From: a bacterium
Lineage (GTDB): Bacteria; Auribacterota; UBA3054
NCBI GenBank assembly: GCA_017649705.1
Contig: JAGCGH010000144.1
Location: forward strand, 1 to 33,433
Direction of reading: 5' to 3'
Length of the DNA: 33,433 nt
The position numbers were made by a program, and so were the translations under genes. Below the pieces are notes generated by a model. The model saw only the letters and a list, made by a program, of their open reading frames with translations. It did no database searches and was not told the origin of the DNA. Numbering within the stretch: position 1 is the stretch's first letter; the number at the start of each line of letters is the position of its first letter. Positions 7,705 to 32,026 of the stretch are shown here, in pieces.

Positions 7705-7720
7705 AAAAGGAGATATTTAT

Positions 7721-9220: not shown

Positions 9221-9246
9221 CAAATTCGGATTTGTTGAGGTTAAAT

Positions 9247-10353
9247 ATGAGGCTAGATAAAGTGATAAAAAGTATATCTGTTGCAAACGCAGCAGTAAAG
9301 AACACGGCATCTCCTGTTAAAATCGACGGATGGTATCCAGCATATAGTGCGTCTGGGCAAGACGTCTGGCTTCCAAATTATAGATTTGACAAAAAAGGAA
9401 TAGTAGTAAGTGCTGTTGGTGCAAGATGCGGAAAAGCATTTAAGGCGGATGGCAAATGGAACATATGTGCTAATACACATGCTTTAATTGTTGATGAGGC
9501 ATTAGCAGATAGAGACTATTGTTGGTATATGTTAAACAACGAAAACTGGTGGATTAAAGGAGGTTCAGCTCAGCCATTTGTCAAAGTTAAAGACTCTCTT
9601 AAAAGAGAACACAATTTCCCTCCAATTGCTAAGCAAAAAATAATAGTTCAAAAACTAAATACTGTTGCAAGTTTAATTAATTTAAGACAAAAAGAAATAA
9701 CCATTTTAGACAATCTCATCAAAGCCCGATTTGTCGAGATGTTTGGCAATCCAGTTATAAACGATAAAGGGTGGAAACAGAAATTTCTAGGTGATACTAC
9801 CTTAAAAATAGGATCTGGTGCTACTCCTAGAGGTGGAAAAGAAGCATATCAAGAAAAAGGCATTTCATTTATCCGAAGCATGAATGTTCACAATGGTAGA
9901 TTCGAATATAAAGAATTGGCACATATTTCAGACAAACTAGCCGAAGAATTAAACAATGTTACTGTTAATAAAAACGATGTGTTGCTCAATATTACTGGAG
10001 CTTCAGTAGCTCGATCCTGTGTTGTTCCAAGCAATGTTTTACCTGCTCGGGTTAATCAGCATGTCTGTATTATTAGATGTAAGGAATGTCTTATTCCAGA
10101 ATTTTTAAATGAATTGCTCATAAATGACGATTCCCAAAAAATGCTATGGATTATTGCTGGTAGCGGTGCCACAAGAGAAGCAATAACAAAACAGCAAGTT
10201 GAGAACTTGCAAATAATCTTGCCACCTATAGAATTGCAAAATGAATTTGTGATATTTAGTAAAAAAATTGAAGAATTAAAAATCAATATTAAAAATGTTT
10301 TAGCTAGCATTCAGCTTTTATATAACAAATTAATGCACATTTACTTTGATTAA
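9247..10353 (+). CDS. hsdS: Type I restriction-modification specificity subunit HsdS
   Basis: 368 residues from ATG at 9247. This start is preferred over an upstream in-frame TTG at 9232 because GAGG is correctly spaced before it. Two target-recognition domains are seen: the first at about 1-125 and the second from about 170. Each is followed by the conserved helical spacer with its characteristic proline-rich entry (FPPIAKQKIIVQKL near 125, and LPPIELQNEF near 325). The KARFVEMFGNP segment marks the end of the central spacer. HsdS reads the bipartite DNA site for the HsdM/HsdR complex. The target sequence cannot be predicted by eye. The gene is very AT-rich. It precedes the HEPN gene by 17 bases. 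Confidence 0.94.
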   Translation: MRLDKVIKSISVANAAVKNTASPVKIDGWYPAYSASGQDVWLPNYRFDKKGIVVSAVGARCGKAFKADGKWNICANTHALIVDEALADRDYCWYMLNNENWWIKGGSAQPFVKVKDSLKREHNFPPIAKQKIIVQKLNTVASLINLRQKEITILDNLIKARFVEMFGNPVINDKGWKQKFLGDTTLKIGSGATPRGGKEAYQEKGISFIRSMNVHNGRFEYKELAHISDKLAEELNNVTVNKNDVLLNITGASVARSCVVPSNVLPARVNQHVCIIRCKECLIPEFLNELLINDDSQKMLWIIAGSGATREAITKQQVENLQIILPPIELQNEFVIFSKKIEELKINIKNVLASIQLLYNKLMHIYFD

Positions 10354-10370
10354 GCCAGAAGGAGATAAAG

Positions 10371-11702
10371 ATGAACGAAACCTTATTGACATACTCCATC
10401 AACAAAATATCCTCTTTAAAACACTATTACGAAGTTGAAAAAGAAAACATTAAACAAACAAGTGAGAAAGAGAAGAAAAAACACATTATAGGAGCAATGA
10501 TAGATAATTATTTATCCCTTCTTGCGTTCTCTAATGAAGATTTAAAAAAAGACGAACATTTTTTGTGGATGGAAAAAGAAGCGTCTAAATTTATTGAAAA
10601 AATAGAAGTATTTAAAGAAGGAAAATCAAAAAGAGTTTCTTTTCGTTTCTTGTCAGAAGACATTGCAAAGGCTGTTGGTAATATCAGCGAAGAAAGCAGA
10701 CTATATGATCAGTTTGAAGAAATGCCAGATATTTTGGGAAGCACAATGCTTATTATGTTAATTACTAGGTTTGAAGAATTTTTTACATTTTTCCTATCTA
10801 CGTTGTATGTTAAGTACCCAGAAAAATATCTTAACAATCAACAATTGGCTTTTTCAGAAATACAGTCAGGAGATATTGAAGAAATAAAGAAGAATCTGGT
10901 TAAACGTGAAGTTGAAGCAAAAATGCGTGAAAACTTTAAAGAATGGTTTAAAATTTACAGTTCTCACGGACTGAGCAAATCTTCCTTCGAAAACGATCTT
11001 GTAACACTTGAAGAAATCTACGCTAGAAGGAATGTTCTTGTTCATAACTCCGGAATAGTTAATGCCTCTTATTTAAATTCCGTCTCAAACTCGTGTGAAA
11101 AAGAAGGAAATAAATTGGCAGTTGATGAAAACTATATGAACTCTGCTTTTAATACAGTTAATCGAATAGTTGTTTTAATGATGATTGAAGCATCGAAATT
11201 AAACAAAAATAATAAAGATAAATATTTGAAGCGTATTTTTGTGTCCCTGTTTAACATGCTGAGAAGTGAAGAATTTGCAGTATGTGAACCCGCATATGGA
11301 GAATTGTATGAAAAGCGCGACTTAAATACTGAGATAAAGATAATGTCAAAAATAAATAAGTGGATATGCATTATTGCATTAAGAGGGAAAGAAGAGGTTG
11401 AAGAAGAAATCAAAGCTTTTGATGTTTCGGCTTTAAATTCCATGTTTAAAATGGCAAAAGAAATACTTCTTGAGAATTATGAAACTGCAAATAAATTGCT
11501 TGAAGGCCTAATAAAAACTAAAGAGATATTGTCTTCGGCAATAGAAGAATGGCCACTTTTTAGGTGGTATAGGCAATCGGAACAATATTCAGTATTAAAA
11601 TTAAAATTCCCAGAAGATTTCAAACTAGAAAGTACTGAAATAGAACAACAAAACCGGAAAAATCTTGATAAGCAAGAATATATTGATAGCAACAAAAACT
11701 GA
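10371..11702 (+). CDS. HEPN-domain protein, putative RNase within the hsd locus
   Basis: 443 residues, mostly helical and lysine/glutamate-rich, with no signal peptide. The segment about 120-230 looks like a HEPN domain: a helix with acidic and aromatic residues (ITRFEEFFTFF, about 131-141), then ARRNVLVHNSG, which has the R-x4-H signature (Arg220, His225) and the RN-xxx-H spelling of catalytic HEPN RNases. No ATPase motif is present. The remaining sequence is unrecognised helical protein. The family contains many toxins and abortive-infection RNases. It starts 17 bases after hsdS with GGAGAT before the ATG, inside the hsd operon and ahead of hsdR, the same slot held by the anticodon nuclease PrrC in EcoprrI. 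RNase activity and a role triggered by HsdMSR disturbance are inferences. Confidence 0.7.
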   Translation: MNETLLTYSINKISSLKHYYEVEKENIKQTSEKEKKKHIIGAMIDNYLSLLAFSNEDLKKDEHFLWMEKEASKFIEKIEVFKEGKSKRVSFRFLSEDIAKAVGNISEESRLYDQFEEMPDILGSTMLIMLITRFEEFFTFFLSTLYVKYPEKYLNNQQLAFSEIQSGDIEEIKKNLVKREVEAKMRENFKEWFKIYSSHGLSKSSFENDLVTLEEIYARRNVLVHNSGIVNASYLNSVSNSCEKEGNKLAVDENYMNSAFNTVNRIVVLMMIEASKLNKNNKDKYLKRIFVSLFNMLRSEEFAVCEPAYGELYEKRDLNTEIKIMSKINKWICIIALRGKEEVEEEIKAFDVSALNSMFKMAKEILLENYETANKLLEGLIKTKEILSSAIEEWPLFRWYRQSEQYSVLKLKFPEDFKLESTEIEQQNRKNLDKQEYIDSNKN

Positions 11703-11736
11703 ACTTCCCATTAAGCGAATCAAAAATCTTTAATGA

Positions 11737-11746
11737 TGTCATAGTT
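11737..11746 (+). promoter_or_regulatory. Operator-like site upstream of hsdR
   Basis: TGTCATAGTT matches 9 of 10 bases of the TGACATAGTT core repeated at the fic promoter, and lies 20 bases before the hsdR start. The 64-base gap between the HEPN gene and hsdR could hold a separate promoter, though no clear -35/-10 pair was found. Shared control of fic-hsdMS and hsdR is inferred. Confidence 0.4.
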
Positions 11747-11766
11747 TTTCATCTAGGGGACGAAGA

Positions 11767-14700
11767 ATGACAAACTTTGAAATATTCAAAAGCTATCCTG
11801 AATTTGCTTCATTTTCGGAATTAGCAATCACGGCAGAAAAAGTTTGCAGCAGTAATCCAAAGGCCTGTGCCATATACTGCTTTCAAACTTTGGATTGTGC
11901 TGTCAAATGGATGTATTCTGTGGACAACAAGCTTATTTTGCCTGAGGATAGTAGTTTCTTTGATCTTGTATCCTCGAATGAGTTTAAGTCGATAGTTGAT
12001 CCTAGCCTTTTACAGAGAATTGAATATATACATAAGCTTGGTGCTACTGCTGAGCATAAGGGGAAGAAAATATCGGTAGAACAGGCTTCTCTTTGCCTTG
12101 AGAATCTATATGTTTTACTAGACTTTATTGCGTTCTGCTATAGTGAGAATTATGAAAAGAAGGAATTTGATCCTTCCCTACTCACTAAGGAATGTCCGAA
12201 AGAAGCATTGCCAAAAGAAGAGAATGTCTTTAAGCTTTCAACTCCTGTTATAGCGAATGATGAGGAGAGAGAAAGGTTTTCTTCGAGGCGAGAAAGGCAG
12301 CTTAGGAATTACATTCCTCGAACACTTGATATTTCCGAGTATAAGACTCGTAAGCTTTATATCGACACAATGCTGCTTGATGCAGGTTGGATAGAAGGAC
12401 AAAACTGGATTAACGAGTATGAATTAGAAGGAATGCCTAATCAAGCCGGATTAGGCTTTGCTGATTATGTTCTTTTCGGAGATGATGGCCTTATCTTGGC
12501 GGTGATTGAAGCAAAGAAGACTTGTGTAAGCGTTGAGAAAGGAAGGCAGCAAGCTAAGTTATATGCTGATTTGATTGAAAAGAAACAAAATTATAGGCCT
12601 GTAGTTTTTTTAACAAACGGATTTGATACCAGGCTTATTGACAATCAATATCCTGAAAGGAAAGTTGCCTGTATCTACTCGAAAAGAGATTTGGAGAAAC
12701 AGTTTAACCTTAAGAAGACTAGACAAAAATTTGACAATATTAGCGTTGATAAGGGTATAGCGGGACGCTACTATCAAGAAGCAGCCATTAAAGCCGTATG
12801 TGAAGACTTTGACAAGAACAATCGCCGCAAAGCCTTGCTGGTTATGGCTACTGGATCTGGCAAAACCAGAACTGTTATTGCGCTTTGCAAAGTCCTGATG
12901 GAAAAGGGATGGATTAAGAATATATTATTCTTGGCAGATCGCACGCCATTGGTTAAACAGGCTAAAAAAGCTTTTACTAAGTTTATTCCGAGCCTTTCAG
13001 CAACGAATATTTGTGAAGAAAGAAATGCCTATGATTCCCGTTGCATACTATCAACTTATCAGACTATGATCAATTGCATTGATAAAGTTGAAGATGCAGA
13101 TGGAAAGATATTTTCATGCGGGCATTTTGATCTCGTTATATGCGATGAGGCGCATCGTTCAATCTATAACAAGTACAAAGATATTTTCAATTACTTTGAT
13201 GCTCCCCTAATAGGTCTGACCGCTACTCCTAAGGATGAAATTGACAAGAATACATATGAGATTTTTGAACTGGCTAACGGAATGCCTACTTATGGGTATG
13301 AACTTGCTCAAGCGGTAACGGACGGATTTCTTGTTGATTATTTGTCAGTAGAAACTACCCTGAAGTTTGTTCAGGAAGGTATTACCTATGATGAATTATC
13401 AGAGGAAGACAAAGAGGCATATGAGGAAACATTTAAAGACGAGGATGGCAACATCCCAGAAAAGATAGAAGCCTCTGCTTTAAACGAGTGGATATTTAAT
13501 GAAGACACAATTGCTAAGGTTCTCAATATTTTGATGACTGACGGGTTGAAAGTTGATTGCGGAAATAAAATAGGAAAAACTATAATTTTCGCTAAAAATC
13601 ATACTCATGCAGAAAAGATTTTCGAAGTGTTTGGCAAACAGTATCCAAATCTTGTCGATTATGCCAAAGTCATCGATAATTACATGACATATGCTCAAAG
13701 TGTAATAGATGATTTTGCTGATCCAAACAAATTGCCGCAAATTGCTATTTCTGTGGATATGCTAGACACCGGTATTGACGTGCCTGAAATACTTAACCTG
13801 GTGTTTTTCAAGAAAGTATTGAGCAAAGCTAAGTTCTGGCAAATGATAGGACGCGGCACGCGTCTGTGCCCCTGTTTACTTGATGGTAAGGATAAAGATA
13901 AGTTTTATATCTTTGATTTCTGCGGCAACTTTGAATTCTTCAGACTAAACAAAGGAAAGGCTTCTGCAAATGCTATGGCTTTACAGGGGGCCATTTTTCT
14001 CCTTAAGGCTAGGATCGCAGAAAAACTACAGGCATTAGAATATCAAACTAAAGAACTGATAGCTTTTCGTGAAAGGCTTGTAAACGATATGCTGTCAAAG
14101 GTACAAGCGCTAAACAGAGAAAATTTTGCTGTCAAACAACACTTGAGATATGTTAACTATTATTCTGAAAAGAAAAACTACACTACTCTAACTTTTGAAG
14201 ATTTAAGAATCCTTAAAGAAGAAATAGTTCCATTGGTTGAGCCAGAACAAGATGAAATCAAAGCCTTGAGATTTGATGATTTGTTATATGGGATAGAACT
14301 TGCTTATCTGGCGAAATCCCCTTGGAATAGTTCCAGAAAAGATCTTATAAATAATGTTCAGGAAATCGCTAAAATTGCCAATGTTCCTGAGATTATTGCC
14401 CATGCAGAAATCATCCATAAGATTTTGCACACTGACTTCCTGGATACCGCCGGTATTAATGAATTCGAGTGCATTCGTGAAGAAATTCGAAATTTGCTGA
14501 AATACATTCCGAATAATTCTGTCAAATATAATACGAATTTCGAAGATGATATTCTTAATACAGAAATTCACGAAGCTGAACTTGAAACTGTCTATTTCGC
14601 GAATTATAAAGTAAAAGCCGAATCTTATATCAGAACACATCAAGATAACGAAGCAATATCAAAGCTGAAATACAATATACCTTTAACAGATGGCGATATC

Positions 14701-15057
14701 AAAGAATTAGAGAGAATTCTTTGGAAAGAAATAGGCACAAAGGAAGAATACAGCGCAGAATATGGTGAAAAGCCGCTTGGAATTTTAGTGCGCAGTATTG
14801 TTGGGCTGGACATGAAAGCGGCAAAAGAAGCCTTCTCCGACTATTTGACCAAAGCGAACTTCAATAGTCGCCAAATATATTTCCTTAACCAGATAATAGA
14901 GTATATTGTGCAGAACGGCACAATGAGTGATTTTTCCGTACTACAGGAAACTCCGTTTACGGATCAAGGAAGTATCGCTGAAGTCTTCGATATGAAAGCA
15001 TGGGCAGGCATAAGAAATACCATTGAAAGGATCAACGCTAATGCTGTAATTGCATAA
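11767..15057 (+). CDS. hsdR: Type I restriction endonuclease subunit HsdR
   Basis: 1096 residues. The first ~130 residues form a helical DUF4145-like domain (RIEYIHKLGATAEHKG), common on HsdR proteins of the EcoEI/EcoR124-like branch. The nuclease domain has a PD-(D/E)xK pattern (FADYVLF with Asp233; AVIEAKK with Glu248 and Lys250). The helicase motor has Walker A ATGSGKT (361-367), DEAH (460-463) and LTATP as motif III. The C-terminal half is the family's helical coupling region. It should translocate DNA and cleave when HsdS meets an unmethylated site. AGGGGA precedes the ATG. The gene is intact. It ends 38 bases before a strong bidirectional terminator. Confidence 0.95.
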   Translation: MTNFEIFKSYPEFASFSELAITAEKVCSSNPKACAIYCFQTLDCAVKWMYSVDNKLILPEDSSFFDLVSSNEFKSIVDPSLLQRIEYIHKLGATAEHKGKKISVEQASLCLENLYVLLDFIAFCYSENYEKKEFDPSLLTKECPKEALPKEENVFKLSTPVIANDEERERFSSRRERQLRNYIPRTLDISEYKTRKLYIDTMLLDAGWIEGQNWINEYELEGMPNQAGLGFADYVLFGDDGLILAVIEAKKTCVSVEKGRQQAKLYADLIEKKQNYRPVVFLTNGFDTRLIDNQYPERKVACIYSKRDLEKQFNLKKTRQKFDNISVDKGIAGRYYQEAAIKAVCEDFDKNNRRKALLVMATGSGKTRTVIALCKVLMEKGWIKNILFLADRTPLVKQAKKAFTKFIPSLSATNICEERNAYDSRCILSTYQTMINCIDKVEDADGKIFSCGHFDLVICDEAHRSIYNKYKDIFNYFDAPLIGLTATPKDEIDKNTYEIFELANGMPTYGYELAQAVTDGFLVDYLSVETTLKFVQEGITYDELSEEDKEAYEETFKDEDGNIPEKIEASALNEWIFNEDTIAKVLNILMTDGLKVDCGNKIGKTIIFAKNHTHAEKIFEVFGKQYPNLVDYAKVIDNYMTYAQSVIDDFADPNKLPQIAISVDMLDTGIDVPEILNLVFFKKVLSKAKFWQMIGRGTRLCPCLLDGKDKDKFYIFDFCGNFEFFRLNKGKASANAMALQGAIFLLKARIAEKLQALEYQTKELIAFRERLVNDMLSKVQALNRENFAVKQHLRYVNYYSEKKNYTTLTFEDLRILKEEIVPLVEPEQDEIKALRFDDLLYGIELAYLAKSPWNSSRKDLINNVQEIAKIANVPEIIAHAEIIHKILHTDFLDTAGINEFECIREEIRNLLKYIPNNSVKYNTNFEDDILNTEIHEAELETVYFANYKVKAESYIRTHQDNEAISKLKYNIPLTDGDIKELERILWKEIGTKEEYSAEYGEKPLGILVRSIVGLDMKAAKEAFSDYLTKANFNSRQIYFLNQIIEYIVQNGTMSDFSVLQETPFTDQGSIAEVFDMKAWAGIRNTIERINANAVIA

Positions 15058-15149: not shown

Positions 15150-18100
15150 TTATTCGCTCGTCAGATCAAGGTAGTTGATGTTGAACTGGCCGCCCAGGGA
15201 GACGATCTTCAGTTCCTGCTCGCCTTCCGCGAGTTCCAGTTCCGCGACGTTCTCGTCGGTCTGCCAGGCTTGCCAATTGCCGGTCTTCACTTTGTTTTCC
15301 CAAACGAACTTTTCCTGGCCGTTCAGAAGAGCTTTTGCGGCGCCGCTTCCGTCCGGAGAGGAGAAGCGCACGCTGACTTTGTAAGTTCCCGGCGTTTTGA
15401 CATTGAGCTTGTAGGCGAAGTAACTTCCCTTTGCGCTGATGTTGGTAAGATTCCTGCCGCCGGTCTCGTCCTGGCAGGTCTCAGCGCCGAGGCCGGAGCT
15501 GATCTTCCCGGCTTCCGTGCCAATGAGGCGCCAGAGATTTCCTTCCGGCTGCTCAGTGACAGCGAAGGGCTTCTTGGGAGCGTTTTTCGCGTACTGCGCG
15601 GCTTTCCTGAGCAGAGGATCCACGCTGAACCTAAGTTCGTCCAGGGAAACGAGGCCCAGCTTGTAAGCCGCTATGAGTTTCTTGGTCTCGCCCCAGGGCA
15701 TCTGGATGTTGCAGCCACCCTTGACCTCTTTCCAACAGACGCTGTGGCTGCCCCAGTCGGTCGTGACGAAGCCGTCGAAGCCCCACTCGCCTCTCAGAAG
15801 GTCAGTAAGCAGCGCTTTCGATTCGGCGGTATGGATTCCGTTGAAGCAGTTGTAAGAGCACATTATCGCCCAGGGATTTGCCTCTTTCACGGCGATCTCG
15901 AAAGCCTTGAGATAAATTTCCCTCAGCGCTCTTTCGCTCAATCTGGAATCGTTGTTAAGGCGGTTTTCCTCGCGGTTGTTGGCGCAGAAGTGCTTCATCT
16001 CCACGCCGCGGTCGCCGTTGGCCTGCACGCCCTTTATGAGGGCGGCGGCCAGCGTTCCAGTCAGATAGGGATCTTCGGAATAATACTCGAAATTGCGGCC
16101 GCAAAGAGGATCCCTGTGGATGTTGAGGCCCGGGGCCAGCCAGACGGCGATGCCGGCCTTCTCCATTTCCTCGCCGATGGCGCGGCCGATCTTACCCAAA
16201 AGCTCGGTGTCCCAGGTGCAGGCCAGCAAAGCTTCCACGGGCCAGGCGGTCTGGGGGTCGTTGAGGCGCAATCCCGCCGGTCCGTCGGCGGTGTGCAGCG
16301 TTTCCACCTCGCGTTCAGACATGCTGCCCACGCTGCCGGTGGAACTGACGCCGCTGCCCTGTCCGCAGGAAAGGGCCGCCAGTTCCTCCACGGTGAGAGA
16401 GTCTATGAAAGCCTCAAGTTTGTCGGGATCGGCGATTACTTCCTCGAAGGACATTTCCCCACCCTTGGGAAGTTCCTTCAGAGCCGGCCATTCGGGGGCC
16501 TTTATTGCCTCGGGGGCGTTCAGGGCGATCCCATAGATGTAGGCGTGGTCGTCCGGGCTCAGGTTTTTGATCCTGAGAATGTGGTAGCCCGAGGAGGAAT
16601 GGAAACGCCAAGGTTCCGTGGAAACTTTTTCGCCTTCCGCGGAAACTGTAATATCCTCGTATTTGCCAAGGTCTATGGAGGCGGAAAGCTTGGCGCCGCC
16701 GTTCACCGCCAGCCTAAGGTCGTCCGGTTCGCCGTCGTTGTTGTAGACGAGGTATTCGATCCACTCGCCCTTGGGCAGGATCAAAGACGCGGGTTCCTTC
16801 GTGAAGTCCAGTCCGTTGCTGGTCCAGGCGTTCCAGCCTCTTTTCCTGAGGCAGAAGGGAGACATGACCTGGCCGTTGTCCTTGACGAGCCCGAGCGCCT
16901 CCTGATCCTCTAAGGTTCCCTTGTACGGCAGGGCGTAGGTGCCGTCGGACTTCAGGACGCTGTCAAGGAAAATGGGCGGCGGCAGCTTGGCCAATCCTTC
17001 CGTCTGAAGGACGTCCGTGCAGGTACGGGAGTAGGTGGCCATGATGCCTTTTTCCTTGGCGTCCCTGACGGAATTGCCGACGTAGATGTTGTAGGTGCCC
17101 GGCTCCATCAGATAGCAGCGCTTGGGGCTCTCCTGAAAAGTTTTCATCTGTTCCAGGGGGAAGGAGACGGTTATGGTCTCGCTCTCGCCCGGCGCGAGAA
17201 GTTTCGTCTTTTTGTAGGCGGCCAGCTCCATGGCGGGATTTCCCAGCCTGCCCTGCGGACGCGAGAAATAGACCTGGACCACTTCGCGGCCGGGGAAATT
17301 TCCGACGTTTCTTATTTTCGCTTCCAGACTGAAGGCGTTGTTTTTGATGGAAGGCTGGAGCAATTCGTAGATGAACCGCGTGTAGGACATGCCGTAGCCG
17401 AAGGGATAGCGGACTTTCAGGCCTTCGGGATCGAAGGTCTCAAAATAACGGTAGCCTACGTAAATATCTTCCTTATAGTCCGTGTATTCCCTGCTCTCCC
17501 TGAAGCAGGAGGAGGAGGGATAATCCTTGTACTCTTTGGCGATGGTGTCGGCCAATTTGCCGCAGGGTGAGAAATCGCCGCAGGCAATATCCCAGAAGGC
17601 ATTGCCGCCTTCCATGCCGGGCTGCCAGACCAAAATGAGAGCGTCCACGGGATAGCGGTCGATAAAGGAGAGATCTATGAGGGCGCCGCTGTTCACGACC
17701 ACGATGACTTTGTAGAAGCCGGCCTTGGCGGTCTCGGATAAAAGCTTCTCTTCATCGTCGGTCAGGTAGTAGTCGCCTTTGATGAGCTGCCTTGCGCTGT
17801 TCTCACCGCAGTTGCGGGAGATGAAGACGAAGGCCGCGGGATAATTCTCGGCGGTCTTCTGCAGTTCCTCGAGCGTCGGAAAATAATTTTCCTCAGCCTT
17901 GTATTTTTCCGCCAGCTCTTTGTCGATCACAATGTCGCCCTTCTCCGCTCTCGCTTCGGCGCCCATAAGGAAGTTGACGGAATAGTAAGCGTAGACGTCG
18001 CCGGAACCGGTGCCGGTCTGGCTGAAGTGGATCTGAGCTTTGCCTATGAGAGCGACCTTCTCGCCTTTGGCGATCGGCAGGGCGTTCTTTTTGTTTTCAA

Positions 18101-18233
18101 GAAGCACCATGCCTTCCGCGGCGGCTTGGCGGCAGAGCGCGGCGTGTTCGGGATTGGGGGCGGGGGTTTCCGCGCAAAGGATATTCACAGCGCCGAAAAT
18201 AATAAGCGCCGCCAAAGGAAAGTGCATTCTCAT
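15150..18233 (-). CDS. Secreted glycoside hydrolase family 3 enzyme, permuted domain order
   Basis: 1027 residues with a signal peptide (about 1-21, ending LCA before ETP). The domain order is reversed relative to most GH3 enzymes. The (alpha/beta)6 C-type domain comes first (about 35-290, with EGMVLLENKKNALPI and YPFGYGMSYT), then a fibronectin III-like domain (about 295-385), then a beta-rich segment (about 465-575) that may be a carbohydrate-binding module. The TIM-barrel N-type domain follows (about 600-885), with the nucleophile Asp826 in TTDWGSHS and KHFCANNRE/GRNFEYYSEDP motifs. A CBM6/35-like module closes the protein (about 895-1027). Such C-to-N arrangements are known in Ruminococcus and Butyrivibrio beta-glucosidases. 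It should remove sugar units from plant or host glycans; specificity is not predictable. AAGGAGACATCC precedes the ATG. Confidence 0.92.
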   Translation of the reverse strand: MRMHFPLAALIIFGAVNILCAETPAPNPEHAALCRQAAAEGMVLLENKKNALPIAKGEKVALIGKAQIHFSQTGTGSGDVYAYYSVNFLMGAEARAEKGDIVIDKELAEKYKAEENYFPTLEELQKTAENYPAAFVFISRNCGENSARQLIKGDYYLTDDEEKLLSETAKAGFYKVIVVVNSGALIDLSFIDRYPVDALILVWQPGMEGGNAFWDIACGDFSPCGKLADTIAKEYKDYPSSSCFRESREYTDYKEDIYVGYRYFETFDPEGLKVRYPFGYGMSYTRFIYELLQPSIKNNAFSLEAKIRNVGNFPGREVVQVYFSRPQGRLGNPAMELAAYKKTKLLAPGESETITVSFPLEQMKTFQESPKRCYLMEPGTYNIYVGNSVRDAKEKGIMATYSRTCTDVLQTEGLAKLPPPIFLDSVLKSDGTYALPYKGTLEDQEALGLVKDNGQVMSPFCLRKRGWNAWTSNGLDFTKEPASLILPKGEWIEYLVYNNDGEPDDLRLAVNGGAKLSASIDLGKYEDITVSAEGEKVSTEPWRFHSSSGYHILRIKNLSPDDHAYIYGIALNAPEAIKAPEWPALKELPKGGEMSFEEVIADPDKLEAFIDSLTVEELAALSCGQGSGVSSTGSVGSMSEREVETLHTADGPAGLRLNDPQTAWPVEALLACTWDTELLGKIGRAIGEEMEKAGIAVWLAPGLNIHRDPLCGRNFEYYSEDPYLTGTLAAALIKGVQANGDRGVEMKHFCANNREENRLNNDSRLSERALREIYLKAFEIAVKEANPWAIMCSYNCFNGIHTAESKALLTDLLRGEWGFDGFVTTDWGSHSVCWKEVKGGCNIQMPWGETKKLIAAYKLGLVSLDELRFSVDPLLRKAAQYAKNAPKKPFAVTEQPEGNLWRLIGTEAGKISSGLGAETCQDETGGRNLTNISAKGSYFAYKLNVKTPGTYKVSVRFSSPDGSGAAKALLNGQEKFVWENKVKTGNWQAWQTDENVAELELAEGEQELKIVSLGGQFNINYLDLTSE

Positions 18234-20162: not shown

Positions 20163-21122
20163 TTACTTGAGACTTTTCCAAGCGGTCTCAACGATGAATT
20201 CCAGATCGCTCTCCTTGGGCTGCCAGCCCAGGATGGTCTTGGCCTTGGTGGAGTCGGCCACAAGTTTCGGCGCGTCGCCGGGGCGGCGTTCCACCATGAC
20301 TTCCGGGATCTCTTTGCCGGTCACCTTGCGGCAGACGTCGATGACCTCGCGGACGGAGAAGCCGTTTTCGCTGCCCAAATTGAAGATGCCGTTCTTCTTT
20401 TCCCTCTTCAGGTATTCCAATCCCAGGATGTGGGCGTCACTGAGGTCGTCCACATGGATGTAGTCCCTGATGCAGGTGCCGTCCGGCGTGGGATAGTCGG
20501 TGCCGAAGACTTTGATATTTTGGCGCGTGCCCTTCGCCACCTGGAGAACCAGCGGGATGAGGTGCGTCTCGGGATCATGGCGTTCCCTCAGCTGTCCTTC
20601 CGGATCGGCGCCGGCGGCGTTGAAGTAGCGGAAAATGCAGTAGTGCATGCCGTAGGCCTTGCTGAAGTCGTCCAGGATAAGCTCGACCATGCGTTTGGAC
20701 CAGCCGTAGGGGTTCAGGGGGGCGATGGGCGTGTCTTCGCTGATGGGGACTTTCTTCACGTCGCCGTAGGTGGCGCAGGTGGAGGAGAAGATGAAATTGT
20801 TGATGCCGAAATCCCGGCAGGCGGTGATAAGCGTCAGGGTCTGGGCCACGTTGTTCTTGTAATACATGTCCGGGTGCTCCACAGACTCGCCGACGGCCGC
20901 GAAAGCGGAGAAATGCATGACGGCTTCGATCTTATGCTCATTGAAGATCTTTTCCAATATCTCCCTGTCGCCGATATCGCCTTCGTAAAAATAAGGGGTC
21001 ACGACCGCGTCGCGGAAACCGCGGGACAAATTGTCAAGCACGGCCACCTCGTAGCCTTTTGCCATAAGACGTTTCACACAATGACTGCCAATGTAGCCGG
21101 CTCCACCGGTAAGAAGGATCAT
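20163..21122 (-). CDS. galE: UDP-glucose 4-epimerase
   Basis: 319 residues from ATG at 21122. The longer frame to 21164 is rejected because it overlaps the methyltransferase C-terminus, and the protein naturally begins MILLTGGAGYIGSHCV, the NAD-binding Rossmann motif. The SDR catalytic Tyr-x3-Lys is in NPYGWSKRMVE, with the preceding Ser in FSSTCATYGD. DDLSDAHILGLEYL and NLGSENGFSVREVI are typical of GalE. It interconverts UDP-glucose and UDP-galactose (or the N-acetyl forms) and would feed the neighbouring glycosyltransferase. Its ATG overlaps the upstream stop as ATGA, implying translational coupling, and AAAGGAA is the ribosome site. Confidence 0.96.
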   Translation of the reverse strand: MILLTGGAGYIGSHCVKRLMAKGYEVAVLDNLSRGFRDAVVTPYFYEGDIGDREILEKIFNEHKIEAVMHFSAFAAVGESVEHPDMYYKNNVAQTLTLITACRDFGINNFIFSSTCATYGDVKKVPISEDTPIAPLNPYGWSKRMVELILDDFSKAYGMHYCIFRYFNAAGADPEGQLRERHDPETHLIPLVLQVAKGTRQNIKVFGTDYPTPDGTCIRDYIHVDDLSDAHILGLEYLKREKKNGIFNLGSENGFSVREVIDVCRKVTGKEIPEVMVERRPGDAPKLVADSTKAKTILGWQPKESDLEFIVETAWKSLK

Positions 21123-23002
21123 ATTTTTTCCTTTTTGGTTGCGAGAATGACGCAGTCGCGGCATCCCCAGATTAGATCGTTTATCTTTTCAAAATTCTTT
21201 TTCGCTTCCTCACTCAGCCCGGGAGCGTCCAGGGTCAACTGTTCGTTCTGCGGGAAAGGATGGAGGAACTTGATGTCGATGTCCTTGTAGCCCATCTGCT
21301 TCATGCGGTTCCTGAGAGCCACCGGATGGACGGGCCTGACATGCGTTATGTCGCTGTAGAAATCACAGGAGGCCACGTGCAGGTTCATGATGTTGGGCGT
21401 CTCCATGGCGATGAGCCCGCCGGGCTTCAGGGCTTTCAAAGAAAGAGCGAGGAATTCGCCCTGCTCGGAAGGCGTAAGATGCTCTATCACGTGCATGGCG
21501 GTGACCGCCGCCAGGCTTCCCTCTTTGGCTTCCCTGAGGTATTGGAAGAGGTCCTTGCACTCCATGTTGAGGCCGGCCTTTTTGCCCCTGATGACCGCGG
21601 CTTCGTTGTTGTCGATGCCGACGGCCGAAATTTTCTTTTCTTTCAAAAGCTCCAGAAGTTCCCCGCGGCCGCAGCCCAGATCGGCGACGACTCCGCCGCC
21701 ACAAGCCGCCTTTTCAAGCAGCGGAACGTAAAATCCGAGGCGTTCCCTGATGTCCGCGACATCTCCCCTGCTCTCGTCTTCGAAAAGCTCGTAATCGGCG
21801 GACTGCCAAGCTTTCTCGAAGTCGTCGAGGACGCTGGGGGCGCTTTCCGCTTTGGTTTCCTTTCCGCCCGCGGTCACGGTGAAGTTTCCGCTGGCCAGTT
21901 TCTCCTTCAGTTCGGAGAAGACGCCGCCGATGGCCGCGTTCCTAAGCTGCAGATCGTCCACCAAGCCGTGCAGTTCCTTGAAGCCGGCTTCGATGGAGGA
22001 GAGGCGCGCGGCCGCCTGTTCGCTGACGGAACCAAGATTCTTGATGCCCTCGTCCGCGGCCGCCAGTCTCTTGGCGGTCTCTTCGTTGGTCTTGCCGAGG
22101 GTCTTGATGCCCTCGTCCGCGGCGGCCAATCTCTTGGCTGTCTCTTCGTTGGTCTTGCCAAGAGCCTTGATGCTCTCGTCCGCGGCGGACAAACGCTTGG
22201 CGGTCTCTTCGTTGGTCTTGCCGAGAGTTTTGATGCCCTCGTCCGCGGCGGCCAACCGTTTGGCGGTCTCTTCGTTGGTCTTGCCGAGAGTCTTGATGCC
22301 CTCGTCGGCGGAATCCAGACGCTTCGCGGTATTTTCGTTGAATTTGCTGATCGTCTTGATGCCTTCGTCAGCCGCGTCTAAGCGCTTGACAGTCTCTTCA
22401 TTGAACTTGCCGATCGCCTTGATGCTCTCATCCGCAGCGGTAAGGCGCTTCGCGGCAGTCTCTCCGCTTTCAGCCAAAGCGCGCACAGCGTTCTCCAAAC
22501 CTTCCAGGCGCTGCTGGACAGCCGCGACTCCAGCGGCGATGTCGTCGACTTTGGCGCCCCATTTTTCCAATTGTTCCAGCCTGGAGTCGATGACTCTCAG
22601 GGCTTCCTCGTTCCTCACTTCCGATTGGCGGAAGTAATTGAAGCGCTCCACCGTTTCCTCGAAGCGGTCCTGGAACATGTTGAGGAGCTTGACCACCGTG
22701 GCGTTGAATTCCACTTGCCGCGTGGCGTAGAGCCGCATGACGCGCATGAGGAGGCCCTTTATGCGGCGGAACCTGGTGTTCTGCGGGACCGTCCTGGGGT
22801 CGTAGATCTTGGCGGCGTAGTCCAGCTGGAAATACATCTCGTTGCCGAGATGGAGATTGTCGAAGTCGGCGGCCTTGGGCGTTTCCGCGACGGGCCGGCT
22901 CACGGCCGCGTCAGGGTTTTCCATATGGAATTTCACCCGGCGCAGGAGCTGCTCCGTTTCCATCTCTTCCACCCGCATGTCGAAATCTTTGTATTCAGGC
23001 AT
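21119..23002 (-). CDS. Coiled-coil SAM methyltransferase with seven 21-residue repeats
   Basis: 627 residues, no signal peptide. Residues 1-130 are a charged helical N-terminus. From about 135 to 345 is a long coiled coil whose core (188-334) consists of seven 21-residue repeats, each exactly three heptads. The C-terminal ~200 residues are a class I SAM-dependent methyltransferase with motif I DLGCGRG (441-447), acidic motif II VGIDNN, and AMHVIEHL. The stretch ETPNIMNLHVASCDFYSDITH resembles methyltransferases in O-antigen/capsule clusters. The layout (methyltransferase plus rod-like coiled coil) recalls WbdD, which caps polysaccharide chains and measures their length. The order of the domains is reversed and no kinase domain is seen. 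It overlaps galE (ATGA) and the upstream glycosyltransferase (TAATG), so all three are coupled. Length control is an inference. Confidence 0.85.
   Translation of the reverse strand: MPEYKDFDMRVEEMETEQLLRRVKFHMENPDAAVSRPVAETPKAADFDNLHLGNEMYFQLDYAAKIYDPRTVPQNTRFRRIKGLLMRVMRLYATRQVEFNATVVKLLNMFQDRFEETVERFNYFRQSEVRNEEALRVIDSRLEQLEKWGAKVDDIAAGVAAVQQRLEGLENAVRALAESGETAAKRLTAADESIKAIGKFNEETVKRLDAADEGIKTISKFNENTAKRLDSADEGIKTLGKTNEETAKRLAAADEGIKTLGKTNEETAKRLSAADESIKALGKTNEETAKRLAAADEGIKTLGKTNEETAKRLAAADEGIKNLGSVSEQAAARLSSIEAGFKELHGLVDDLQLRNAAIGGVFSELKEKLASGNFTVTAGGKETKAESAPSVLDDFEKAWQSADYELFEDESRGDVADIRERLGFYVPLLEKAACGGGVVADLGCGRGELLELLKEKKISAVGIDNNEAAVIRGKKAGLNMECKDLFQYLREAKEGSLAAVTAMHVIEHLTPSEQGEFLALSLKALKPGGLIAMETPNIMNLHVASCDFYSDITHVRPVHPVALRNRMKQMGYKDIDIKFLHPFPQNEQLTLDAPGLSEEAKKNFEKINDLIWGCRDCVILATKKEKI
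22001..22441 (-). repeat. Seven tandem 63-bp coding repeats (coiled-coil units)
   Basis: Seven in-frame 63-bp units encode 21-residue repeats of the form xAADEGIKTLGKTNEETAKR plus Leu. Units 3 to 6 are nearly identical in protein and DNA; units 1, 2 and 7 are more diverged. Hydrophobic or small residues fall in strict 3-4 spacing (Ala3, Ile7, Leu10, Asn14, Thr17, Leu21), with Asn in a core position, a feature that favours parallel dimers. A degenerate unit flanks each end. Confidence 0.95.
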
Positions 23003-26000
23003 TAAAACAACCTCCCTTTTTCAAGTATGGCGCGGTACTGCGCCGCCGCTTCCGCAGTGGTCTTTTTCAAAGAGAATTTCGCGACCTGACCGGGCGCGGC
23101 GGCAAGCAAAGTTTTCCTCAGGTTTTCGTCTTCGTCGAGCTTTCTCACGGCCTTGGCGAGAGAACTGATGTCCTTGGGATCGTCAATTAGAAGCGCCGCG
23201 TTTCCGGCTACCTCCGGCAGCGAAGCGACGTTGGTTGTGACGCTGGGCGTTCCGCAGGCCATAGCTTCCAAGACCGGCAGGCCGAAGCCTTCGTAAATTG
23301 AAGGATAAACGAGAAGGCGCGCCGCGCTGTAAAGGCTCGCCAGATCGGCTTCGTCAACATAGCCTATAGGAATGATGCGGCCCTTGGAACTCTCTATTCT
23401 TTCTTTCAGCTTGTCGTTGAGCCAGCCCTGGGCGCCAGCCACGATAAGGGGAAGATCTATCTTTTCGCTGAGCCAGGCTTCCACGACAGTTGCGAGATTC
23501 TTCCTGGGCTCCATGCTGGCCAAAAAGAGCGCGAAGCGTTCCGGCAGTTTGTATTTCTTTTTGACTCCCGCGATCAATTCATCGCTTGATCTCTTGAATT
23601 TCCTCTCGTCATAAGAGCAGTAGTTCACCCCGCAGCGTTCCGCGGGAACTTTCAGGATCTCCATCAGGTCGCTTCTTGTGTGCTCGGAGATGCAGGTGAA
23701 GAAAGCGCCTTTCTTAAGGGACTCCTTGATGTTCTTGGTGCAGAACTCGATGGTTTCCTTCGTATGGAAATGCGGATGCGTCAGGAAGGAGAGATCGTAG
23801 ATGGTGGAAAGGATGGGGCCCTCGAATTCCGGCGTGGTCCAACCGGTGGAGTGGACGAGGTCCGTTCCCGGAACGGTGGAATCCTTGGAGACGAAAGCCG
23901 GCGTCACGCCGCGCCAGAGGTTGAGGTTCTTGGCGTCCGGGCAGATGAAATCGAAGCGCGTCAGATACTCCGGATGCGTAAAGGTGGTGAAGCCCGGCAG
24001 CAGCGTGAACTCCATATCCTCCGGCGGGAATTCTCCCAGTCCCCTGGCGAGGTTCAGGATGTGGCGCCCGATGCCGGTTATCTGCTCGCCTATCCCGCGG
24101 CTGACGTCCAGGGCAACGCGTTTCTTGGCGGGATAAGGAACGTAGGCCGGGAAGCTCAGGTCTTTCTTCTGTATTTCGGAAAGCCGCTTGGCGATCCTGG
24201 CGGCGGTGTGGGTGAAGGTCCAGTTGTCTTTTACGTCCTCATACGCCCTCGCGCCCTTCATGCGCGCCTCTTCCTGATTTTCGAAAACGTGGCGCATCAG
24301 GGCGGACAAATGGTCGCTGTCCGGCTCGGCCCACTGGAATCCCTTATAGTAAGGGCATTTCGCCACGGCGGGGATCAGTTTCTTGACCTGCAGCGGATAA
24401 GCGTTGTAGCTGTTCATGAAGGTGGTCTGGGCGCTCCAGTTGGTGGCGATGACCGGGAGCCCGCAGGCCATGGCTTCCAGAATGGGCATGCCCCAGCCTT
24501 CTCCCCTGGTGGACAAAACGAAGCAGTCGGCGGAACGGTAAAGGCTGCCCAGCTGATAATAAGGCAGATATTTGTTGAAGATGAATTCTATCCTGCCGCC
24601 CTGGGGATCCAGGTTCAAGCTTCTTATGATCTCGGGAACGTTGACGCTCGGGTCGGTGCAGTTGGCTTTGCAAAGAAGGACCACCGGCTCCTTGGCCCTG
24701 AAGGTCCGGTTGAAGGCCACGATCAGATCTTCCGGCGCCTTGCGCTCGCCCCACTCGAAGACCGTCAGGAATTTGAAGTCGTCGCTGACGGGGAATTTTT
24801 TGATGAGGGGGTTGAAATAATTTGTGTCGACGCCCAACGGCATGAGGTGGATGGGAACTTTCACGCCGGAATTCCTGAAGGTCTCAAGGTTGAAGAGGCT
24901 GGGCACCCAGACTTCGTCCATCTTGTTGCAGTGCTCCACCCATTCCTTGGGCAGCCCCGTCACTTCCAGCATGGTGTAGCCGATTTTGTAATTGCCGACG
25001 CCTTCCGTTTTCTTTGTCACGAAGGCGTCGCCCTGGCCGTAGACCACGCAGGGGGCGTTGGGGTCAATGGCCCTGGCTTTCATGACGTTGACGTTGTAGT
25101 AGGGCGCCGCCTCCGGTTCCTCTATGGGGAAGACCGTGCCCGCGCCGTAGAGGTAGCGGTAAGAGACCGCCACGTTCTGGGCATCCAGGTGCAACAGCAT
25201 TTCCTTACTGGACATGGCGTAGCCGTGGGGCCGGGAGACCGTGGAGAGCCAGTTGACGTTCTGGGTGTAGCGCGCCTCGCAGGTCTTGGCCCATTTCTTC
25301 TTGAAGATCCCCTGCGACTTCAGGAAAATGTCGTTGTGGCTGACCTTGTTCTCCTTGGTGGAGACGTTCTCGTGGTGGACTATGGTGGCACCGCCGCAGC
25401 AAACGGTCTTATATCCCGCCGCCTTGGCCCGCAGGCAGTAGTCGGTGTCCTCGAAATAGGCGAAAAAATCTTCGCTGAGCAGGCCGATCTTGTCTATAAC
25501 TTCCCTTTTGATGTAAGCGCAGGCGAAGACCACGCTCTCGACTTCGGAATTGAAGGGATACTGGTTGAGGTTCGCCTCGTTAGAGGCCACCTGCTGGCCC
25601 CAGTAGGGCCCCACCGGCATCCAGGCGCCCAGATGCTGCAGCAGTCCGTTGGCCCTTATCAGGCGGCAGCCCACCACGCCTGTGTCCGCCGATTCGTAAG
25701 CGGCCTCCTGCATCTTTATGAGCCAGTCTCCTTTCTCTTCCAGGATCTCGGTGTCGTTGTTCAAAAGCAGGATGTCGGAATCGTGGGGCGTCAGCTTTAT
25801 GGCGACGTTGTTGCCCTTGGGGAAGCCCAGATTGGCATTGTTGAAAACGCACTTGATATCCTTCTGGCTTTTCAAATATTCTACGGTTCCGTCCGTGCTG
25901 CCGTTGTCGGCCACATAGATCGTGTAATTCGGGTGCGTAGTGTAGCGCCTCAGGGTGTCCAGGCAGCGCTTGGTGTAGGCAAGACCGTTCCAGGTAAGAA

Positions 26001-26022
26001 TAATTATGGCAACATTCCGCAT
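23002..26022 (-). CDS. Three-domain glycosyltransferase (GT2 + GT4 + GT4)
   Basis: 1006 residues, cytoplasmic, no membrane segments seen. The N-terminal ~260 residues are a GT2 (GT-A fold) domain, rhamnosyltransferase-like: IIILTWNGLAYTKRCLDTL, VADNGSTDGT and LLLNNDTEIL as the DxD equivalent. The middle part (about 300-620) is a GT-B, GT4-type domain with EGWGMPILEAMACGLPVIATN near residue 505. A second GT4 domain (about 640-1000) has YEGFGLPVLEAMACGTPSVTTN near residue 908. Each GT4 motif carries the nucleotide-sugar-binding E-x7-E pattern. One polypeptide could therefore add three residues of a glycan repeat in sequence. The sugars are not predictable, though galE downstream hints at galactose. 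Its stop overlaps the methyltransferase start (TAATG). The ribosome site before the ATG is weak. Confidence 0.92.
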   Translation of the reverse strand: MRNVAIIILTWNGLAYTKRCLDTLRRYTTHPNYTIYVADNGSTDGTVEYLKSQKDIKCVFNNANLGFPKGNNVAIKLTPHDSDILLLNNDTEILEEKGDWLIKMQEAAYESADTGVVGCRLIRANGLLQHLGAWMPVGPYWGQQVASNEANLNQYPFNSEVESVVFACAYIKREVIDKIGLLSEDFFAYFEDTDYCLRAKAAGYKTVCCGGATIVHHENVSTKENKVSHNDIFLKSQGIFKKKWAKTCEARYTQNVNWLSTVSRPHGYAMSSKEMLLHLDAQNVAVSYRYLYGAGTVFPIEEPEAAPYYNVNVMKARAIDPNAPCVVYGQGDAFVTKKTEGVGNYKIGYTMLEVTGLPKEWVEHCNKMDEVWVPSLFNLETFRNSGVKVPIHLMPLGVDTNYFNPLIKKFPVSDDFKFLTVFEWGERKAPEDLIVAFNRTFRAKEPVVLLCKANCTDPSVNVPEIIRSLNLDPQGGRIEFIFNKYLPYYQLGSLYRSADCFVLSTRGEGWGMPILEAMACGLPVIATNWSAQTTFMNSYNAYPLQVKKLIPAVAKCPYYKGFQWAEPDSDHLSALMRHVFENQEEARMKGARAYEDVKDNWTFTHTAARIAKRLSEIQKKDLSFPAYVPYPAKKRVALDVSRGIGEQITGIGRHILNLARGLGEFPPEDMEFTLLPGFTTFTHPEYLTRFDFICPDAKNLNLWRGVTPAFVSKDSTVPGTDLVHSTGWTTPEFEGPILSTIYDLSFLTHPHFHTKETIEFCTKNIKESLKKGAFFTCISEHTRSDLMEILKVPAERCGVNYCSYDERKFKRSSDELIAGVKKKYKLPERFALFLASMEPRKNLATVVEAWLSEKIDLPLIVAGAQGWLNDKLKERIESSKGRIIPIGYVDEADLASLYSAARLLVYPSIYEGFGLPVLEAMACGTPSVTTNVASLPEVAGNAALLIDDPKDISSLAKAVRKLDEDENLRKTLLAAAPGQVAKFSLKKTTAEAAAQYRAILEKGRLF

Positions 26023-30288: not shown

Positions 30289-31155
30289 ATGAAAAAAAGC
30301 GCCATCTTCTTACTCCTTCTCCTGACCGCCGCGACCCTTCTGGCCGCCGCACCCAAAGAGGACGAAGCCTGGATCCAAAAATGCAAAAACTTCAAAGTTT
30401 TCGGCATCTCGCTCGGCATGACGCCCAATCAGGTCCGTTCTGTCTTTCTTAAGGCCCCCAGGTCTTCCTTGCTCCCCTGGTCTGAGACCACGCCCTATGT
30501 CTCGGAGTTTCGCTTCGACACGGACACCAACTTCGGCCCGCTGGACCAGTCCTTGACACGCTACCTTGACGTAGGCTTCTCCCCTATCATGACGAACGTT
30601 CCCAAACGCTCGCAGATGCGTGTGGCTTTCTCCAACAGCTATGAACTTTCCTACCCGCTGACGGAAGCCCACAATCCTCAGAACGGCACGGAAGAGGTCC
30701 TGCCCTACATAAGGCACAGGGCGACCTTCCACGACTACATCGTCTACACAAATACCCAATTCATGACTGTCAAAAGGCTGAAAGTCCGCGACAGGGCCGA
30801 CATCAAGGTCTACTTCAACAAAAAGCACCGGGCCGTGGCCATCGGCGTCGACCTTCTCAACATGAAGGACGACGACCAAGAGAAAGCCTTCAAATTCATG
30901 AACGAAAACTACAGCAAGCAGCTGGCCAATTCCGACCAGTACAACTTCACCTTCGACTGCCCCCAGGCCGCCAACGTCTGCCTGCAGTCCAGTTGGACAA
31001 ACTATTACACCGCTCCGGAAAATCTTTCCTTCAAGATCGCTCCTCCCCAGTATTTCCGCCGCTGGAGAGGCCGCAACTTTTACTACCACGAGATCGAATA
31101 TTTCAAGGCCCTGGAAGAAAAGAAACAGAAAGATCCTCTCTTAAACTGCCTCTGA
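30289..31155 (+). CDS. Exported protein of unknown function, tandem paralogue 1
   Basis: 288 residues with a signal peptide (MKKSAIFLLLLLTAATLLAA). The mature part opens with EDEAWIQKCKNFKVFGISLGMTPNQVRSVFLKAP, whose GMTxxQV resembles the start of BamE/SmpA-like domains. The rest alternates short beta and charged segments, including FHDYIVYTNT and VYFNKKHRAVAIGVDLLNMKDDD. No enzyme motif was recognised. It is clearly homologous along its full length to the next gene, 10 bases downstream, so the pair arose by tandem duplication. AAAGGAG precedes the ATG. Envelope location is inferred. Confidence 0.8.
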   Translation: MKKSAIFLLLLLTAATLLAAAPKEDEAWIQKCKNFKVFGISLGMTPNQVRSVFLKAPRSSLLPWSETTPYVSEFRFDTDTNFGPLDQSLTRYLDVGFSPIMTNVPKRSQMRVAFSNSYELSYPLTEAHNPQNGTEEVLPYIRHRATFHDYIVYTNTQFMTVKRLKVRDRADIKVYFNKKHRAVAIGVDLLNMKDDDQEKAFKFMNENYSKQLANSDQYNFTFDCPQAANVCLQSSWTNYYTAPENLSFKIAPPQYFRRWRGRNFYYHEIEYFKALEEKKQKDPLLNCL

Positions 31156-31165
31156 TCGCTAGAAA

Positions 31166-32026
31166 ATGAAAAGAATCGTCTCAAGTCTAATTCTCCTCTT
31201 CCTCGCGGCCGCGCCGCTGTTGGCCGCGCCAAAAGATGACGATGCCTGGATCCAAAAAGCCAAAAACCTTAAGATCCTCGGGGTCTCCATCGGCATGACC
31301 GCCGGGCAGGTGCGCTCCGTGCTTCTGAAAGCCCCCAAGACCACGCTGCTTCCCTGGGCCGCCACTACGCAGTACCACTCCCTTTTCCGCTTCGACTTGG
31401 ATACTGGCTTCGGGCCTTTGAACGGTCCGCTGGACCGCTTCCTGGACATCGGCTTCGCCCCCATTCCGACCAACACTCCCAAGAGATCGGAAATGCGCAT
31501 CCAATACGACAACCCTTACTGGGAGACCTACCCCATGCAGGAGAACCACCATCCCGGCAACGGTGAAGCGGAGATCCTGCCGTTCATCTCCTATTCCGCC
31601 AAATTCCACGACTTCATCGTCTACACCAACACGATCTACCAGAGCAAGAAGACCCTGAAGGTCAGGACGCGCGCCGAGATGAAATTTTATTTCAACGCCA
31701 AGAACAGAGTGGTGGCCATCAACGTGCATCTTTACAACATGAAGGACAACGACAAGGAAGCCGCCCTGAAGCAGCTGAACGCCAAATACAGCCTCAAGAT
31801 GGAGAAGTCCGACAACGATTACTACACCTACGACGTCTATCCCGCCTCCGGCGTAACGTTGCAGTCCGAATGGAAGAGCAACTACCATTACAAACCCACC
31901 GACAAGAACGCTCCTCCCCTCAACAGCCGCCGCTGGGAAGCCGACAACTTCTACTTCCACGAGGACGAATACATGAAAGCCCTGACCGAGAAAAAACTCA
32001 GGGACCCCCTCATGGAGATCCTCTAA
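31166..32026 (+). CDS. Exported protein of unknown function, tandem paralogue 2
   Basis: 286 residues with a signal peptide (MKRIVSSLILLFLAAAPLLA). It aligns end to end with the preceding protein: DDAWIQKAKNLKILGVSIGMTAGQVRSV, TLLPW, FGPL, TPKRSEMR, FHDFIVYTNT, FYFNAKNRVVAINVHLYNMKDND and the final RDPLMEIL all have counterparts. Cysteines present in paralogue 1 (for example in WIQKCK and the FDCPQAANVC region) are absent here. No Shine-Dalgarno sequence is evident before the ATG; translation may be coupled to the upstream gene 10 bases away. Function unknown. Confidence 0.8.
   Translation: MKRIVSSLILLFLAAAPLLAAPKDDDAWIQKAKNLKILGVSIGMTAGQVRSVLLKAPKTTLLPWAATTQYHSLFRFDLDTGFGPLNGPLDRFLDIGFAPIPTNTPKRSEMRIQYDNPYWETYPMQENHHPGNGEAEILPFISYSAKFHDFIVYTNTIYQSKKTLKVRTRAEMKFYFNAKNRVVAINVHLYNMKDNDKEAALKQLNAKYSLKMEKSDNDYYTYDVYPASGVTLQSEWKSNYHYKPTDKNAPPLNSRRWEADNFYFHEDEYMKALTEKKLRDPLMEIL

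Follow-up and report, generated by a model that had tools for sequence, protein, structure and literature searches.

The window, a stretch of 33,433 nucleotides from a gut bacterium of the UBA3054 lineage, encodes a methyltransferase carried at the end of a long predicted coiled coil, part of which is built from seven tandem 63-bp units. The number of units differs between closely related species, while the heptad register is always kept. With confidence evenly balanced between acceptance and doubt, we read the protein as a coil-tethered glycan-capping methyltransferase, similar to WbdD but of opposite polarity, in which rod length would set chain length. The parts of the gene and its operon partners are listed in Table 1.

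Table 1. The rod methyltransferase gene, its parts and its neighbours (positions in the window)
Feature	Position	Strand	Basis
Rod methyltransferase gene, 627 aa	21119..23002	-	ORF with homologues across the class
N-terminal domain, residues 1-140	22583..23002	-	kin to the MT-A N-terminus of sister genera (bit scores)
Basic amphipathic helix, residues 75-92 (NTRFRRIKGLLMRVMRLY), candidate membrane anchor	22727..22780	-	hydrophobic moment 0.56, net charge +6
Proximal non-repeat coil, residues 106-183	22454..22687	-	single heptad phase shift near W148; AlphaFold2
Seven tandem 63-bp units (21 aa, three heptads each), residues 184-330	22013..22453	-	
Distal non-repeat coil, residues 331-371	21890..22012	-	heptad phase equal to that of the units
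Linker, residues 372-402, variable among species	21797..21889	-	low pLDDT, indels in alignment
Class I SAM methyltransferase head, residues 403-624, MT-B clade	21131..21796	-	DLGCGRGE motif intact; PF13489
1006-aa glycosyltransferase (GT2 and two GT4 modules), upstream, overlapping; candidate polymerase partner	23002..26022	-	Pfam
galE (UDP-glucose 4-epimerase), downstream, overlapping	20163..21164	-	TIGR01179

The repeat array and its heptad register

Tandem Repeats Finder detects a period of 63 bp at 22035-22440 (6.4 copies, 82% matches, 0% indels), and a repeat search of the window gives a start-to-start spacing of exactly 63 bp throughout the array. In the minus-strand ORF (23002-21119) the array reads as seven units of exactly 21 amino acids, residues 184-330, with an internal repeat score of 85 against at most 4.9 in shuffles. 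The first-pass annotation had recognised seven three-heptad repeats at 22001-22441; the repeats and the length of the array are confirmed, but its position was off by 12 bp. Plus-strand ORFs across the repeat (e.g. 21260-22381) were discarded as shadows, since it is the minus-strand gene that has homologues and conserved domains. Matches of the rod to the DUF16, SMC and tropomyosin families denote generic coil similarity and not family membership.

A single heptad phase is maintained from about residue 148 to 385, spanning the units and non-repeat coil on either side, and the heptad contrast of the rod is 3.6 as against 1.9 or less in shuffled sequences. Each unit has six a/d positions, of which four are apolar (L, A, I, L/I); in the third heptad a is Asn or Ser and d is mostly Thr. 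In the 42 full-length units compared among seven species, R3, L4, D8 and E19 are invariant and the a/d consensus is L-A, I-L, N-T, so that each unit has two strong heptads and a polar one. The spacing had been described as perfect, which is nearly right: the phase holds through repeat and flanking coil, with a single shift near W148. Because the units contain Gly as well as a polar third heptad, the coil may be flexible, a point that counts against a ruler. Among the units pN/pS is about 0.3, with synonymous sites nearly saturated; the ratio indicates that the units diverge under purifying selection.

The head is preceded by about 265 residues of heptad coil, which places the catalytic domain at one end of an extended coil. 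The rod does not join the methyltransferase directly, as had been supposed: between them lie a non-repeat coil of about 40 residues and a linker of about 30. In the AlphaFold2 monomer model the head is predicted with confidence (10-residue blocks up to 96) and the rod forms two long helices, 98-222 and 233-370, of low confidence. The latter counts against the ruler explanation, although low values are to be expected when an oligomeric coil is modelled as a monomer.

Unit number among species

Six congeneric orthologues were taken from whole genomes, two of them matching ruminant-gut assemblies (L080, L081). The expectation that repeat number would differ among relatives was borne out. There are seven units in the window, G001 and G003, ten in G004, and four each in G005 and G006; the array of G002 (14+21+14+21+21 residues) holds 13 heptads. 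Register is kept in all seven species. Indeed, rod lengths from anchor to anchor are 108, 115, 171 and 234, all equal to 3 modulo 7, and the differences between species are always multiples of seven residues, unlike the indels in the linker and the N-terminus, whose sizes are not tied to seven. The complete rods measure 199-325 residues by species, or about 30-48 nm at 1.485 Å per residue.

Some unit copies evidently arose by recent duplication in single lineages, to judge from their DNA: units 2-6 of G003 are 90-97% identical to one another, units 2 and 3 of G004 are 97% identical, and G002 carries a duplication of 35 residues (five heptads).

The operon and its distribution in the class

The rod methyltransferase gene overlaps both the 1006-aa glycosyltransferase gene (GT2, GT4, GT4) upstream and galE downstream. 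The three genes form one operon. The methyltransferase query finds a match in each of the 15 genomes of the class, a strong one in 14 and only a weak one in G007, where the glycosyltransferase match stops short at residue 930. The glycosyltransferase is found at E below 1e-100 in 14 of the 15. Wherever both genes are visible in the class they adjoin. From its GT2+GT4+GT4 composition, the 1006-aa protein is a candidate for the partner polymerase.

In sister genera that have the operon on one contig (G011, G012, G014), the order is MT-A, glycosyltransferase, MT-B, galE. Two different coil methyltransferases thus flank the three-module glycosyltransferase (L073, L072 and L074, respectively), and in G012 both contain repeat coils, with repeats of 17 and 18 residues. 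The window genus has a single methyltransferase, placed after the glycosyltransferase.

Other parts of the window also deserve mention. Positions 6646-15057 encode a Fic-domain protein and, after it, a type I restriction-modification set (HsdM, HsdS, a 443-aa protein and HsdR). At the corresponding site of G006 (L062), a single unrelated 521-aa ORF lies between GMP synthase and the glycoside hydrolase, so that 6646-15057 looks like a lineage-specific island. The glycoside hydrolase family 3 protein at 15150-18233 has a swapped domain order (C-terminal domain, Fn3-like, N-terminal domain, CBM6/35). Two adjacent ORFs of 288 and 286 aa at 30289-32026 have no Pfam match; since the ORFs of relatives at this site match the first of them at 55-78% identity, they are probably tandem paralogues.

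A chimeric methyltransferase

The head is a SAM methyltransferase, as the first-pass annotation stated. It matches PF13489, its glycine-rich SAM motif (DLGCGRGE) is intact, and it resembles PDB 3dli_A in sequence (E 2.6e-33) and in fold (Foldseek TMt 0.90). Among the matches listed, 3dli, from Archaeoglobus, is the closest solved structure, and no WbdD structure is among the structure matches listed for the head. In a tree the head groups with MT-B (support 100/97), and residues 1-140 score 101-134 bits against MT-A proteins versus 2-27 bits, or no match, against MT-B. By these affinities the window genus carries a chimera, an MT-A N-terminus on an MT-B head. The retention of the MT-A N-terminus though MT-A itself was lost suggests that it performs a needed job, such as docking. 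The basic amphipathic helix at residues 75-92 would serve for membrane anchoring; similar helices are present in MT-A, in MT-B and in several further members of the family.

Linkage to Wzm-Wzt export

We surveyed 80 relatives from many phyla. As a rule the head is C-terminal in these proteins and follows an N-terminal stretch, typically of 150-400 residues, and a heptad-like signal occurs ahead of the head in 58 of 75 relatives versus within it in 18 of 75. In 35 of the 80, both Wzm and Wzt are encoded within 6 kb of the methyltransferase, and in 22 of these 35 the methyltransferase lies at most 600 bp from Wzt on the same strand. All ten Wzts tested (nine linked ones and the window genome's own) possess the Wzt_C sugar-binding domain. 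Since most of the genomes searched contain one or two Wzt_C genes, chance linkage is estimated at about 1% or less. Cyanobacteria are over-represented among the relatives; linkage also occurs in Bacillota, Pseudomonadota, Desulfobacterota, an actinobacterium and an archaeon (taxa as in the records). The family is tied to Wzm-Wzt export across phyla.

In the window cluster and the class genomes, wzm-wzt was sought near the operon and not found. The window genus has a single Wzm-Wzt, with Wzt_C, on another contig, and this lack of linkage within the class counts against the ruler explanation. The genome's single Wzt (L162:4209-5918, on contig C44 of G000) is about 561 aa long and consists of an ABC domain, Wzt_C and about 150 residues without Pfam match; homologues form open frames of 545-583 aa across the class. 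The genome also encodes several Wzy_C proteins and one Wzz-like protein, so the substrate of the methyltransferase could belong to another glycan pathway, a further point against the ruler explanation. That the organism has Wzx/Wzy systems alone is ruled out, since both kinds of system occur.

Repeat rods of unrelated sequence recur among the relatives. Repeat lengths are 14 residues in Nostoc (L099, beside wzm-wzt), 15 in Methanoperedens, 18 in MT-B of G012, 22 in Microcystis, 25 in G130 and 13 in Desulforhabdus. The Nostoc protein (L099:5599-7239), whose gene lies directly behind wzm-wzt, contains about seven near-identical 14-residue repeats (RLSTVDTHFQGIDQ) and is a good candidate for repeat-number polymorphism. 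A protein from Burkholderiales (L122:5932-7083), encoded next to Wzt, has the polarity of WbdD, with the head N-terminal and 21-residue coil repeats behind it. It is possible, though less likely than not, that many lineages independently built the rods of wzm-wzt-linked capping methyltransferases from DNA tandem repeats (of 21, 14, 18, 22, 25 and other numbers of residues), so that glycan length could evolve, or vary within a population, stepwise by gain or loss of units.

A ruler or a tether?

What the data show directly is the architecture of the protein, the repeat and its variation between species, the keeping of register, the pairing of genes in the operon and, for the family, the link to Wzm-Wzt. 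The following model is compatible with these findings. The N-terminal domain would hold the protein at the inner membrane beside the glycosyltransferase encoded by the upstream gene. A rod of 199-325 residues, presumably a parallel coiled-coil oligomer, would carry the methyltransferase away from this anchor. There the head may methylate the growing glycan, probably at its non-reducing end; such terminal methylation would stop chain growth and may also mark the glycan for the CBM-bearing Wzt exporter. If only chains that span the rod can reach the head, rod length would set chain length, and each 63-bp unit gained or lost would move the head by about 3.1 nm with the heptad register intact. By analogy with WbdD, it is plausible that repeat number sets glycan length. 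The molecular ruler proposed by the first-pass annotation thus draws support from the heptad rod, the variable unit number, the intact head, the glycosyltransferase partner and the family's Wzm-Wzt link, but not from WbdD-type polarity, WbdD homology or a linked exporter, which the protein lacks.

The main rival is a serious one, to which we give real weight while leaning against it. It assumes that the rod tethers and oligomerises the protein but meters nothing. The rod would be a neutral, length-tolerant spacer, with slippage or unequal recombination causing the repeat number to drift while selection keeps only the register. Close species differ up to 2.5-fold in repeat number, which fits a tolerant spacer. 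So does the comparison of G001 with G006, which are 94% identical in methyltransferase DNA, yet have seven and four units. The unrelated repeats of the relatives likewise suggest loose constraint on length, sequence and type of repeat. However, coil length sets chain length in the analogous WbdD (PMC5082667) and the family belongs to the same pathway, so that an effect of rod length is to be expected, whether selected or not.

Alternatively, the methyltransferase might decorate internal residues or a short oligosaccharide, without terminating the chain or controlling its length, the rod merely reaching the substrate. The lone three-module glycosyltransferase of the operon would suffice for a short oligosaccharide, Wzm-Wzt is absent nearby, and two such methyltransferases per sister-genus operon exceed the need for one terminator. 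Across phyla, however, relatives sit directly behind wzt genes with a CBM domain, the pattern of end-capping, and we regard internal decoration as improbable. That faulty assembly of short-read metagenome-assembled genomes created the differences in unit number is scarcely credible: the class genomes do resemble draft metagenome assemblies and G003 has an exact internal repeat of up to 106 bp, but the longest is 32 bp in the window, where assembly error behind the repeat number is unlikely, none reaches 20 bp in G005 or G006, the units differ by synonymous changes, and every array lies inside one contig.

What is known of coil rulers for glycan length comes from a few laboratory systems with engineered changes of rod length. 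Here a natural series is found, in which the enzyme and its partner glycosyltransferase hardly change while the rods have 12, 13, 21 or 30 repeat heptads and register is kept. If glycan length follows repeat number, a mutable DNA repeat is linked, in defined steps, to the length of surface glycans, and the series constitutes a natural set for measuring a ruler.

Comparison with known systems

WbdD of E. coli O9a and Klebsiella O3 is a methyltransferase-kinase chain terminator with a coiled-coil ruler; insertions in its coil lengthen the chains and truncations shorten them, the distance being about 200 Å (PMC5082667). Coiled-coil rulers mark the terminators of ABC-transporter-dependent glycans (PMC11231755). 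WbdD and the window protein have in common a SAM methyltransferase on a long coil and a multi-module glycosyltransferase partner; an amphipathic helix at the opposite end of the coil is in the window protein a candidate anchor, and a pathway with a CBM-bearing Wzt is shared at the level of the family, the window's own Wzt being unlinked (PMC3482155, PMC11231755, PMC5082667). The differences are considerable. In the window protein polarity is reversed, with the anchor N-terminal and the enzyme C-terminal, whereas the order in WbdD is methyltransferase, kinase and coil from N to C; no kinase domain is found by Pfam; and the rod consists of DNA-level tandem repeats whose number varies among species. 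Rods of the window genus are 30-48 nm long as against roughly 20 nm in WbdD, which counts against a ruler. By homology the protein is no WbdD, given its different domain order and the missing kinase, and the structure matches listed for the head lend no support to direct homology. Its polarity is reversed and unrelated repeat rods recur; both facts suggest that the spacing is more important than the end at which the enzyme sits.

Searches of the freely accessible literature turned up no account of variable tandem repeats in the coils of terminators. In Klebsiella O7 ORF6, O4 ORF7 and O12 WbbB, a coil likewise separates the terminating enzyme from polymerising glycosyltransferase modules, and the available text of PMC11231755 describes no such variation in them. 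Their enzymes differ from that of the window, the terminator domain of O7 and O4 is N-terminal, and the polymerase is fused in O7 and O12. The 80 3dli-type relatives share the head of the window protein, most have a heptad-like N-terminal region of 150-400 aa, and many are encoded beside wzm-wzt. They have other repeat units or none, whereas in the window genus the units are of 21 residues and the methyltransferase is the MT-A/MT-B chimera.
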